Assembly: GCA_015491865.1 (NCBI GenBank)
Contig: WFVD01000013.1
Location: 1 to 64,000 of the forward strand
Direction: 5' to 3'
DNA: 64,000 nt
Source: Gammaproteobacteria bacterium
Lineage (GTDB): Bacteria > Pseudomonadota > Gammaproteobacteria > SZUA-140
Below the pieces are notes generated by a model. The model was given only the letters and a program-made list of their open reading frames with translations, made no database searches and was not told where the DNA came from. This document shows positions 59,216 to 64,000 of the stretch, one piece after another (the stretch's first letter is position 1; each line of letters starts with the position of its first letter). The translations under genes and the position numbers were made by a program.

Positions 59216-60520
59216 ATGACAAACCTTGCGATCCAGATTAAAGGGCTGACCAAGATATATCCGCCCGATAACAGAGCCGTTGATACGCTCGACCTCGAAA
59301 TCAAGGCGGGCGAGATCATGGCGTTACTCGGCCCAAATGGCGCGGGTAAAAGTACAACCATTCGTGCCGCCTCAACCCTGTGCGGCTTTGATGAAGGAAA
59401 AGTGGTGGTTGCTGGTTTTGATGTTGATACCCACTCGCTTGAAGTTCGACAGGCGATCGGCGTGGTGGCACAGCAGACGGGAATCGATTATTTTCTCACC
59501 GGACGAGAAAACATGGTACTGCAAGGGCATCTCTACCGGATGAAAAGGAGCGATATCAACAGCCGTATCGAAGAACTCGCCCGCTATTTTGAACTCGATA
59601 GCAGTATCGACAATCTCGTCAGCACCTACTCTGGTGGCATGCGTAGAAAACTCGATATCGCCTGCGCGTTGATTCATCGCCCTGAAATCCTCTTTCTTGA
59701 TGAACCAACACTGGGACTCGATATCAAGAACCGAAAAATTCTGTGGAAACATATCGACAAACTCAATAAAGAGTTTGGTCTGACAATTTTGCTCACCACT
59801 CACTATCTGGAGGAGGCCGATAATCTCTCTCATCAAGTGGCCATCATCAACAACGGCCAAGTGCAGGTCGTTGATACACCCGATGCGCTAAAGAACAGTA
59901 TCCATGGTGATTCCATTACTGTCAGCTTTGATGATGTTGGCAAAAATGAGCAGGCTTTCTTTCACTATGCGCAACAGCAATCCTATATTAAAGGCTCCAC
60001 CTGGGAAGATAACAAATTACACCTCTATGTTGAGAATGGGGGGGCCAACGTTGCAGCACTGATGGCAATCGCCACTGAAAACCAGGCGCAGATCACCAAC
60101 CTTTCACTCTCCCGCCCCACACTCGATGATGTCTTCCTTAAATATACCGGCACCAGCATCCTTGAAACCAAAGAAGAGGAGGGTGATGAGTGGTGGAAAC
60201 AGTGGGCCGGTAAAGGTGGCAACACCGGCAAATGGAAAAGTCAGTGGGGCGCTGGCGACTCAGCAGAAGATGGTGAAGAGCAGTCATGGAAAAACAGCGA
60301 CTGGCTAAAAGAGAGTGAAGACGGCAAAAACATCGGCACTCAGAAACGAGAGGAGGCGCAGTGGCAACAGGATAGCTGGTCGGGGCAACAGCAAGGTGCC
60401 AATAAAAATGACGGCAGCAACACGACTGATGAGCAAGGCTCACAACAGTGGGATCCATCACAACAGGGCAACTGGCAAAATAACGAGTGGAATAAAAACA
60501 AAGACGGCGGAGAGAAATAA
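59216..60520 (+). CDS. ABC-2 exporter ATPase with Trp-rich repetitive tail
   Basis: A 434-residue protein. Residues 1-310 are a normal DrrA/CcmA-like ATPase: Walker A G39-PNGAGKS-T47, signature YSGGMRRKLDIA at 138, Walker B FLDEPTLGLD at 160, H-loop H196. Residues about 319-434 are unlike any ATPase domain I know. They are almost free of aliphatic residues, rich in G, Q, N, K, E, D and S, and hold 12 Trp arranged mostly as pairs 3-5 residues apart: W327/W330, W340/W344, W358/W363, W383/W388, W420/W425. The frame is intact, and the permease gene starts 3 bases after the stop, so the tail is not read-through. It is predicted disordered and cytoplasmic. Substrate unknown. Confidence 0.9.
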   Translation: MTNLAIQIKGLTKIYPPDNRAVDTLDLEIKAGEIMALLGPNGAGKSTTIRAASTLCGFDEGKVVVAGFDVDTHSLEVRQAIGVVAQQTGIDYFLTGRENMVLQGHLYRMKRSDINSRIEELARYFELDSSIDNLVSTYSGGMRRKLDIACALIHRPEILFLDEPTLGLDIKNRKILWKHIDKLNKEFGLTILLTTHYLEEADNLSHQVAIINNGQVQVVDTPDALKNSIHGDSITVSFDDVGKNEQAFFHYAQQQSYIKGSTWEDNKLHLYVENGGANVAALMAIATENQAQITNLSLSRPTLDDVFLKYTGTSILETKEEEGDEWWKQWAGKGGNTGKWKSQWGAGDSAEDGEEQSWKNSDWLKESEDGKNIGTQKREEAQWQQDSWSGQQQGANKNDGSNTTDEQGSQQWDPSQQGNWQNNEWNKNKDGGEK

Positions 60521-60523
60521 TCC

Positions 60524-61276
60524 ATGCTTGCAGATACATGGCACCTGTTTAATAAATATATGCGCATCACCATGCGTATGCCGATGTGGACACTGTTCAC
60601 ACTGATCCAGCCACTCATCTGGCTACTGATTTTTGGGCAACTGTTTAAAGACTTTGTACAGCTTGGCGATGAAGACTATATGGCTTTCATGGTGCCGGGC
60701 ATTCTGGTAATGACGGTACTGTTTGGCTCCTCATGGTCCGGAGTAAGCCTGTTGCGAGAGATTACGGCAGGCACCGTAGATAAGATGCTGGTCTCTCCAG
60801 TGTCGCGCATCGCGATAGTGCTGAGCCGCGTACTACACTCATCGGCACAGGTGATTGCACAGGCATTCATTATGTTGCTGGTGGCGTGGATACTGGGGGC
60901 AACACTCAATATGAGTCCGCTCTACTTACTGATGGCAATGGTGATTGTACTGCTACTGGGCATCGGTTTTGCCGCCCTCTCAAATGGTTTTGCGATTGCG
61001 CTACAGCGCGAAGAACCACTGGTCATGATCGGCAACCTGATGACGTTACCCCTGATCTTCTTTTCATCCGCACTGGTTCCTGAACAGTTTATGCCAGACT
61101 GGATTCAGCTGATCTCCGCAGTCAACCCGATCAGTTATGCGGTAGATGCCATCCGTGCCGTACTGAGCACCACACCGGATATGGCGATCTTTGGAAAAGG
61201 ACTAGTGGTATTAACCATCTTTGCAGGTGCCTCCCTTGCCTGGGCGGTAACAGCGTTTAATGCACTAAGGGATTAG
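60524..61276 (+). CDS. ABC-2 type transporter permease
   Basis: A 250-residue membrane protein with six hydrophobic helices and the ABC-2 pattern FMVPGILVMTVLFGSSWSGVSLLREITAGTVDKMLVSPVSR, plus PLIFFSSALVPEQFMPDWIQLISAVNPISYAVDAIRAVL. It pairs with the ATPase three bases upstream to form a DrrAB-like exporter. The substrate cannot be read from the sequence. Confidence 0.93.
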   Translation: MLADTWHLFNKYMRITMRMPMWTLFTLIQPLIWLLIFGQLFKDFVQLGDEDYMAFMVPGILVMTVLFGSSWSGVSLLREITAGTVDKMLVSPVSRIAIVLSRVLHSSAQVIAQAFIMLLVAWILGATLNMSPLYLLMAMVIVLLLGIGFAALSNGFAIALQREEPLVMIGNLMTLPLIFFSSALVPEQFMPDWIQLISAVNPISYAVDAIRAVLSTTPDMAIFGKGLVVLTIFAGASLAWAVTAFNALRD

Positions 61277-61352: not shown

Positions 61353-64000
61353 CTAGAATAGTAGATTAAAACCAACTGTTAGCGCATTCCGCTTTGAACC
61401 AGTGAGCGAGGTGCTTTGTAACAAAAAGCCATCATCAAACTCTGCCTGGGTTAATGTTGTCCTGATCCCTAGATTAGAAACGGTTCTCACATAGGCATAA
61501 CTAGTAAAAATCCTGATTTTACGGCTCATCCAGTAAGCAAGCCCGGCAGAGAAATTGTGAGTACTGTTTTTGCGATAACCAAGAAAGTTGGTATATGAGT
61601 CTCGATTAACATAGCGGGTAAGCGTATAGCCATACCCAATATTGCCCGTCATTCCACTCTTGAAACGGTGCTCAAGCCTCAGATTCAGTTGATGACTACG
61701 ATAAGCGTAATCACTGGCTTCAATCTCAGTATTATCATTTCGATTATAACTGTAGCCGAGTTTAACATTCATCCGGTCACTAATATTCTGACTGATATCA
61801 CCACCCAGGCGTAATGATTCTGAACTAAAAAGGTTATTCGTATCCGAGACAAAATCTGTCTGTGACAATGAGAGAGTAAACCCTGTCATCACCTTATCGC
61901 CAGAAAACAGGTCATATAATTTCCTAAACTTGGCCCTGGTCATGATCTCTGAAAAGAAAATACTCGTTGAACTACTACGCAGCTCTGTTAGCAACCCCTT
62001 CGAACTTCTCTTGGTGTAGCCACCGATCATGGTATAACGTCCAGGTGTCATGGTTGCCGACAGGCTATTACTCGTATTTAAGAAATCAAACTGCCCTTTA
62101 TGATAAACTGAATATGTTGGCGATGAGCTCAGGCGCAAACGCAATCCATTTTTCATCTTATACTGGTATGAGAGATTAAATGACATATCAGACCTTAGCT
62201 CAGCACCGCTGTTGGCAATGGTATCATCCGCTATCGTATTATCATCTGAAGTGATAGAGTAGCCCATACTGGCAGTCATCCCTTTTATCTTCTTTTCTGC
62301 GGCGAACAGGCGCGCCTTCACATCATTTGCCATCTCCTCACTCGGATTGTCCTGCAATATCTTTCGGTATTCACTAATGGCATCTTCTTCCTGATTTAGC
62401 CTTTCCAGTGTTCCAGCCAGGCTCAGCCGCGCACCAAAATTACCAGGTGAAAGCCTCACCACGTTCTCATAGGAGTCCACCGCTTTTAAAAAAGCTTCCT
62501 CACGCGAATAAATTAAACCAAGGTAATAATAAGCCAGCACATTATCTGGCCGTTCAGCAATCATCTCTTTAAATTCTCGCTCGGCAATCCCTAACGCACC
62601 TTCATTAAAACTCTTCTTTGCGACAGCAAGACGAAGAGATCTGACCATTGATGCTGTCTGCTCAGGTTCAGTACTAAGCATTACTCCTTTTGCGTAAGCT
62701 GATATTGCATCATCAAACTTCCCGATCTCACTTGCGATTGCTGCCTTTATAGCAATAATTCTCAGATCATCAGGACTCAGCTCTGCTGCCGTTGATATTG
62801 ACTCATACGCCTCCTCCTTGCGCTTAGCCTGCATATAAAACTGTGCCAACTTGAAATATGCATCAATATCTTTGGGATTATTTTCAATCCTTTCCAGCAG
62901 AAAAGCCTCGATCACTTCCGCCTTTTCTGTTTCCGACATTTTCTCGAAAACCTCATCGCCACTCATAGCCTCACCACTGATATCCATCAATGTTTTTTCC
63001 GCTTCAGCGGCATACCTTGTACCCTTACCCTCCTTGATAATTTCCTCCAGCAGATCAACTGCAAGCCCCGTCTGTTTAGAGAGTAAATAGAGTCCTGCAA
63101 GCTGAGACTTTGCCTCAAGGTGATTAGGTACTATTGATAATATTTTCTGGTAATTCTCTTCAGCAAGTTTATATCGGCCCAGCTGTGTATTTGATCTTGC
63201 CATTAACATCAGCGCGGGCAGGCTGTTAGGGTTGATTGCAATAACAGCTTTTAGAATATCGAGTGCATCCTGATGATTACCACTTGAGGCGATTAGATTC
63301 GCCTCGATAATGCCGAGTCGCTCCTGCGCCCTTTTTCCAACTGCACTACTGGCACCCAGGTTAACAGCTGTTTCAAGGTTTTCAATTGCCTTAGAGATTT
63401 CACCCTTACGCTCGTAGATGCTTGCTAAATTCAAGTATGCGTTTGCGTACCTGGGGTTAATTTCAATAACCTTCTCAAACTCAACCTGAGCCTCATCCAT
63501 TTTCCGTAGAAAAAAATAACCAAGCCCCAGACTATATCTAATCAAATAATCATCTGGATATTTCTGAATAAGCCGGGAAAATATAGGCAGTGCCTTGTCA
63601 ATCTGCCCACCTCTTGCCAGTTTTGTTGCGGTCAGAAATTCAATTTTCTTTACCGCCTCCTGGTGATCTTTTGAGCCGGGCAGCGAAAGCCCACCAATCT
63701 GCTGAAAAATACGTATTGCATCATCATATTGAAGCCTGAATTCATATGAATATGCCAGTGACTTATAGTATTCGATATTGTCAGGTGCAAGCGCTATCGA
63801 CCTCTTTAAATGCTCAACACCTTCATGAAAGCGCCCCATCCGAACAAGAATGACACCGGCCTTGGCATGCGCCTCAGCATTATCTTTATCTACGGATAGA
63901 ATCGTATTTAGCAAGCTCAATGCACCCGAAAGATTACCACTCTCAAATGCTTTCTGGACCTCCCCAAGCCGTGAGGCACTCTGATTTTTGAGTTCAGTCA
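61353..64000 (-). CDS. TPR-repeat plus outer-membrane beta-barrel protein (5' end cut off)
   Basis: At least 882 residues are encoded. The frame stays open to the window edge, so the N-terminus lies outside. Residues up to about 545 (counted from the TTG at 63920) are some fourteen TPR units, for example ANAYLNLASIYERKGEISKAIENLETAVNL. From about 560 the sequence changes to alternating strands with aromatic and glycine girdles (SFNLSYQYKMKNGLRLRLSSSPTYS, NVKLGYSYNRNDNTEIEASD, GNIGYGYTLTRYVNRDS) and ends in a C-terminal Phe (LTVGFNLLF), the outer-membrane barrel signal. It could be a BcsC/PgaA-like exporter of polysaccharide, but no partner gene is in view. Confidence 0.82.
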   Translation of the reverse strand, partial: TELKNQSASRLGEVQKAFESGNLSGALSLLNTILSVDKDNAEAHAKAGVILVRMGRFHEGVEHLKRSIALAPDNIEYYKSLAYSYEFRLQYDDAIRIFQQIGGLSLPGSKDHQEAVKKIEFLTATKLARGGQIDKALPIFSRLIQKYPDDYLIRYSLGLGYFFLRKMDEAQVEFEKVIEINPRYANAYLNLASIYERKGEISKAIENLETAVNLGASSAVGKRAQERLGIIEANLIASSGNHQDALDILKAVIAINPNSLPALMLMARSNTQLGRYKLAEENYQKILSIVPNHLEAKSQLAGLYLLSKQTGLAVDLLEEIIKEGKGTRYAAEAEKTLMDISGEAMSGDEVFEKMSETEKAEVIEAFLLERIENNPKDIDAYFKLAQFYMQAKRKEEAYESISTAAELSPDDLRIIAIKAAIASEIGKFDDAISAYAKGVMLSTEPEQTASMVRSLRLAVAKKSFNEGALGIAEREFKEMIAERPDNVLAYYYLGLIYSREEAFLKAVDSYENVVRLSPGNFGARLSLAGTLERLNQEEDAISEYRKILQDNPSEEMANDVKARLFAAEKKIKGMTASMGYSITSDDNTIADDTIANSGAELRSDMSFNLSYQYKMKNGLRLRLSSSPTYSVYHKGQFDFLNTSNSLSATMTPGRYTMIGGYTKRSSKGLLTELRSSSTSIFFSEIMTRAKFRKLYDLFSGDKVMTGFTLSLSQTDFVSDTNNLFSSESLRLGGDISQNISDRMNVKLGYSYNRNDNTEIEASDYAYRSHQLNLRLEHRFKSGMTGNIGYGYTLTRYVNRDSYTNFLGYRKNSTHNFSAGLAYWMSRKIRIFTSYAYVRTVSNLGIRTTLTQAEFDDGFLLQSTSLTGSKRNALTVGFNLLF

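Follow-up and report, generated by a model that had tools for sequence, protein, structure and literature searches.

An apparently undescribed tryptophan-rich tail on the ATPase of an otherwise ordinary DrrAB-type exporter

Introduction

Among described ABC transporters, the closest to the system studied here are the DrrA/DrrB exporters (TIGR01188 and PF13732; TIGR01247), in which an ATPase domain is followed by a DrrA-type C-terminal domain and is encoded in one operon with an ABC-2 permease. We analyzed a gene pair with all of these features in a 64,000-nucleotide stretch of gammaproteobacterial DNA, referred to here as the window, whose ATPase continues past its C-terminal domain into a polar tail rich in Trp. 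In the Wzt-type ABC-2 ATPases, the C-terminal substrate-binding domain is a folded, carbohydrate-binding one. The Trp tail resembles it in extending the ATPase at the C terminus and, as we infer, in possibly capturing substrate, but it differs in looking unstructured by composition and, in the case of the window tail, in matching neither a Pfam domain nor a PDB chain.

Paired Trp are also a feature of the trpzip hairpins, which are designed peptides with two Trp pairs in a W-ENGK-W spacing around a turn. The GW/WG hooks for Argonaute resemble the Trp tail in being polar and in having numerous spaced Trp with little conservation of the spacers (PMC10991848). However, these hooks belong to eukaryotic RNA silencing, and the likeness is one of composition, with no sequence relation claimed. 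The Trp tail is apparently an undescribed part of an otherwise ordinary exporter: no Trp-rich extension of an ABC ATPase came up in a literature search, no library searched contains a description of the tail, and a PHROGs search gave nothing useful.

Results

Exporter pair and composition of the window tail

The ATPase gene was found intact (Table 1). Within its first two domains, both PF00005 (E 1.7e-28) and PF13732 (E 1.2e-8) scored over the Pfam cut-off, and the cut-off of TIGR01188 was narrowly exceeded (314.2 bits against 312.45). The permease gene starts 3 bases past the ATPase stop and adjoins the ATPase gene at nearly all loci compared. The pair thus combines a DrrA1-3-like C-terminal domain with an ABC-2 permease in the same operon, and, judged from sequence, the two genes encode an ordinary ABC-2 exporter of the DrrAB type. 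The permease was under the cut-off of TIGR01247 (drrB).

Table 1. Coordinates of the exporter genes and of the tail elements in the window
Feature	Coordinates	Strand	Residues	Remarks
ABC ATPase open reading frame	59216-60520	+		434 aa, intact
ABC-2 ATPase domain and DrrA-type C-terminal domain	59216..60148	+	1-311	PF00005, PF13732, TIGR01188
Linker from ATPase to tail core, short, acidic	60149..60184	+	312-323	alignment A1
Invariant tail core DEWWKQWAGKGGNTGKWKSQW	60185..60247	+	324-344	WWxxWAGK in 24/24 orthologues; profile A2 E 7.4e-17
Putative worn repeat element 1, WKNSDW	60287..60304	+	358-363	position and spacing match WQGNEW of sister genera; conserved within genus
Putative worn repeat element 2, WQQDSW	60362..60379	+	383-388	W-x4-W spacing
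Single Trp	60449..60451	+	412	kept in 88% of genus members
Putative worn repeat element 3, WQNNEW	60473..60490	+	420-425	both Trp kept in 8/8 genus members
ABC-2 permease, partner of the ATPase	60524..61276	+		250 aa; PF01061 E 5.5e-32

According to the initial annotation, residues 319 to 434 of this protein include 12 Trp and hardly anything aliphatic, and this was confirmed: Trp occupies positions 326, 327, 330, 340, 344, 358, 363, 383, 388, 412, 420 and 425. Val, Met and Cys are absent from the final 119 residues, which include only two Leu and a single Ile and are otherwise dominated by G, Q, E, K, N, D and S. All five of the Trp pairs that it had quoted are present in the tail, but its W-[KQ]-x(1-3)-W consensus mixes two elements. 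W327-KQ-W330 and W340-KSQ-W344 are parts of a separate conserved core (WWKQWAGKGGNTGKWKSQW) lying outside the repeat, and the repeat proper consists of the three W-x4-W pairs listed in Table 1, each with a spacing of 5. Within the window tail alone, close pairing of Trp was not significant (P 0.23) and the presence of three or more equal Trp gaps was marginal (P 0.036); the significance of the spacing thus comes from the relatives.

Tail anatomy across lineages

In 23 lineages, 12 to 15 residues separate the WW of the core from the YTG at the end of the C-terminal domain. Every tail opens with WWx[QK]WAGK and a Gly-rich linker, to which nearly all tails add W-x(2-3)-W. Beyond this core lies a lineage-specific region of about 55 to 300 residues that is very different between lineages; it is polar, mostly net acidic, has about one Trp per ten residues and is often built of tandem units. 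In the sister genera of the window's family, the unit is a tandem 22-residue repeat, WQGNEWVDKDGKPKGDWGxDPN, and single tails have as many as seven WxGNxW elements. Other units were WTKEEMEEWWKNKGQ in family f22, WTEEETAQWQNKQWSPEEMESWQKQ in G099 and DWQNNEWNKxKDSPPDDWKKW in G094, and the tails of other lineages were W and Q rich with no clear unit. The second half of the 22-residue unit is absent from most lineages, including that of the window. Despite these differences in sequence, whole tails had 8 to 15% Trp in every lineage, with 0 to 6% ILVMF and no Cys.

The commonest Trp spacing was W-x4-W, with 47 gaps of 5 observed versus 11.9 expected in 22 lineages, a count in which tandem copies inside one tail are non-independent. 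The motif W-x-[GN]-[NST]-[EDQK]-W, which had 33 occurrences distributed over 9 of 23 lineages (shuffled tails, mean 0.35 and maximum 3), may be ancestral, since it is found in families f1, f76 and f81. Compared with these sequences, WKNSDW, WQQDSW and WQNNEW of the window look like worn copies of the WQGNEW element of the sister genera. WKNSDW and WQNNEW would represent the surviving form of the motif, and the hexamer WQNNEW recurs in another family (G094, L156). WQQDSW, in which the first Trp is kept in half of eight genus members and the second in all, would be a more degenerate copy. The spacing around a candidate two-residue turn (GN, NN or NS) is that of the trpzip peptides, and by this analogy each W-x-[GN]-[NST]-x-W pair might form a small hairpin.

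Distribution and origin of the tail

In a sample of 369 genomes of the class, the tail-core profile A2 matched 26, once per genome. Orthologues were searched with the ATPase domain alone at a cut-off of E 1e-95 or better, on which their count depends. This search retrieved 24 of the 369 genomes, including the window's own, the remaining 23 proteins being 55 to 94% identical to it. All 24 genomes were among the 26 matched by the tail profile, so that 24/24 orthologues carry the tail. Both additional profile matches were rejected, as the one in G340 was another protein and the one in G277 lay in a frame that holds two stops. Thus, no orthologue without the tail was found. A search of 398 genomes from across the phylum revealed neither an additional orthologue nor an intermediate down to E 1e-62, and plasmid searches returned distant DrrA proteins only, from which the tail was absent; many of the searched genomes are fragmented assemblies.

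A scan of named genomes with patterns shared by ABC ATPases in general yielded nothing but DrrA-type ATPases from outside the clade (approximately 36 to 48% identity). We used these as an outgroup control, of which 41/80 were readable by the motif used. These 41 proteins stopped a median of 24 residues past the C-terminal domain and had hardly any Trp there (5 per 1025 residues), whereas members of the Trp-tail subfamily have a Trp core and a tail of 77 to 319 residues. In a tree that excluded the tail, the 34 tail-bearing ATPases formed one clade with a support of 100/100. The Trp-tail relatives span nine bacterial families, and the simplest reading of the sequence data is that the tail was gained once.

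In one genome, the contig starts within the Trp tail and the tail frame shifts inside the repeats (L212, G019:C205:1-3742). This change of frame is either an assembly fault or a real frameshift; the repeats may break assemblies.

Selection on the tail

In the eight genomes of the genus, conservation in the tail was 95% at Trp positions versus 71% overall (permutation P 0.0009); past the core, the values were 91% and 64% (P 0.009). Within the genus, the ATPase had a median dN/dS of 0.03, as compared with 0.01 in the core and 0.16 in the remainder of the tail, ratios that are rough because dS was about 1.5, near saturation, and the usable pairs were 10 and 14 of 28 for the two tail parts. From these comparisons we conclude that the tail is a real part of the protein under purifying selection. 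The earlier description of the tail as a tandem, worn repeat, as opposed to random low complexity, is supported by this selection and by the unworn 22-residue repeat of the sister genera. A missing tail in homologues or a Trp content varying freely among close relatives had been named as evidence against that description, and neither was seen, the first among the orthologues and the second in the range of Trp density per lineage and in the preferential conservation of Trp.

Genomic surroundings

At most loci, the ATPase-permease pair lies between a divergent gene, which we take from its sequence to be tsaD, and a convergent block encoding a TPR protein of ~900 aa, a protein of ~300 aa, an HAE3/MMPL-type RND transporter, a DUF1302 protein and LolA-like/DUF1329 proteins. 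In the window, the block opposite the ABC pair occupies 61353-64000 on the minus strand and continues to about G000:C13:70500 (L199). The ~300-aa protein encoded between the TPR and RND genes was seen at 21 loci (L160:11877-12776 on the minus strand and relatives) and had no Pfam or NCBIfam match.

Of the 24 class genomes with a Trp-tailed ATPase, 23 also had an RND orthologue (at least 51% identity), which was absent from the class genomes lacking that ATPase. From this co-occurrence one might suspect a pathway for lipids or hydrophobes of the envelope, although it may reflect only shared descent. We rejected it as proof of a shared function, since descent alone could produce it, since the RND orthologue is missing from G322, which has the ABC pair, and since the RND gene occurs with no ABC pair detected in G010, G016 and G017. 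The absence of the pair is uncertain at least for G016, where the contig stops inside the TPR gene. A link to sulfur oxidation was dropped, as no dsrA scored over the cut-off. In two genomes of family f75 (L141, L142), the pair sits in a different neighborhood, among genes that, judged from their sequence starts, are presumably fxsA-, dsbD-, aroQ- and accB/accC-like. The ATPase and permease genes thus behave as a stable unit.

Discussion

Tryptophan is costly to synthesize and seldom enriched in polar, apparently unstructured regions; the Trp of the tail therefore probably do something. In our opinion, the chances are about even that the tail is a multivalent arm of Trp "stickers on a string" on the cytosolic side, serving substrate capture or transporter clustering. 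The tail would be cytosolic, since it follows an ABC ATPase, and its composition suggests that it is mostly unstructured. The Trp/Lys core would fix the arm at the transporter by packing on the ATPase, on the permease or against the membrane interface, and the repeated Trp would offer many weak, interchangeable aromatic contacts. Through these contacts, the export substrate (or its carrier) could become concentrated locally, or neighboring transporters could be linked. Capture appears somewhat more likely than clustering, two roles that sequence cannot separate, and none of the present results points to RNA as a ligand of the tail. Consistent with the notion of stickers, repeat units vary by lineage and spacers turn over fast while the Trp density stays; on the other hand, the repeat of the sister genera is regular enough to fold.

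A membrane-interface anchor is an unlikely alternative in our view. The Trp/Lys core (WWKQW...WKKW) would then form short amphipathic stretches in the inner-leaflet interface that keep the ATPase close to the membrane or regulate it there, and the rest of the tail would be a loosely constrained extension contacting lipid head groups. Trp favors membrane interfaces, and the core, a Gly linker flanked by many Trp and Lys, is nearly unchanged across lineages. By analogy only, a Trp-bearing hairpin peptide from a choline-binding repeat becomes an amphipathic helix on micelles (PMC4471590 and PMC8268221). An anchor confined to the core, however, needs neither the net acidic character that most of the tail shows in most lineages nor its conserved Trp.

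The tail could also act as a docking hook for one cytosolic protein, with each Trp element entering pockets of the partner as the GW/WG repeats do on Argonaute. The recurrence of the W-x4-W spacing would fit such a hook, as would the combination of many Trp, a polar, apparently unstructured tail and fast-changing spacers, which recalls the AGO-hook proteins (PMC10991848). Yet no co-conserved gene for a soluble partner was found beside the pair, whose neighbors in most families are envelope proteins, and the sequence and spacing of the units change more across lineages than a fixed pair of pockets suggests. We thus hold this explanation to be quite improbable.

It is highly doubtful that the tail is a folded ligand-binding module, in which the 22-residue repeats of the sister genera would form a row of beta-hairpins with ligands between the Trp and the window genus would have a decayed version. 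The idea comes from a weak likeness of these Trp/Gly units to choline-binding repeats (PF19085; CbpL, PDB 4cnl, PMC5137146). Indeed, the sister tail L011 matched the choline-binding protein chain 4cnl (E 5e-4), and PF19085 matched 3/6 sister tails (best E 0.0084), whereas nine shuffled tails had no Pfam match and one had no PDB match. Nevertheless, every Pfam match was under the curated cut-off (15.9 versus 27 bits for L011), the individual 4cnl stretches had E values of 1.5 and 0.03 with high bias, and the L012 tail matched no choline-binding chain. AlphaFold placed putative strands in the repeats of the sister genera, but at low confidence (pLDDT 45), and a Foldseek search with the sister tail gave no match; the model of the window protein was too poor to use. 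Moreover, a fold built on the 22-residue unit would be at odds with the absence of its second half from most lineages, and the window tail did not match PF19085. Membership in the choline-binding repeats was rejected, being under the Pfam cut-off and absent from most lineages; in contrast to these surface proteins, the Trp tail is presumably cytosolic, and the window genus and most families lack the likeness.

Finally, copy number and unit sequence vary strongly among lineages, as a functionless low-complexity tail expanding neutrally by repeat slippage would, but this reading is very improbable and appears largely refuted by the conservation data, given the lack of any loss among the orthologues, the dN/dS past the core, the preferential retention of a residue with a single codon (TGG) and the narrow range of Trp density.

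Returning to the multivalent Trp arm, we propose tentatively, and with less than even confidence, that these proteins represent an undescribed class of ABC exporters, in which a disordered, fast-evolving tail of Trp stickers, fastened by an invariant Trp/Lys core, would collect substrate or bring transporters together on the cytosolic side. If true, exporters would be able to recruit through multivalent weak binding, with no folded domain needed. The exporter itself is ordinary, but the tail offers a clear example from nature in which composition persists and sequence does not: within one clade and with no loss among the 24 orthologues, length varies about four-fold at a Trp density of 8 to 15%. 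Short and long as well as worn and unworn tails provide material for testing how a disordered aromatic tail may serve a transporter.
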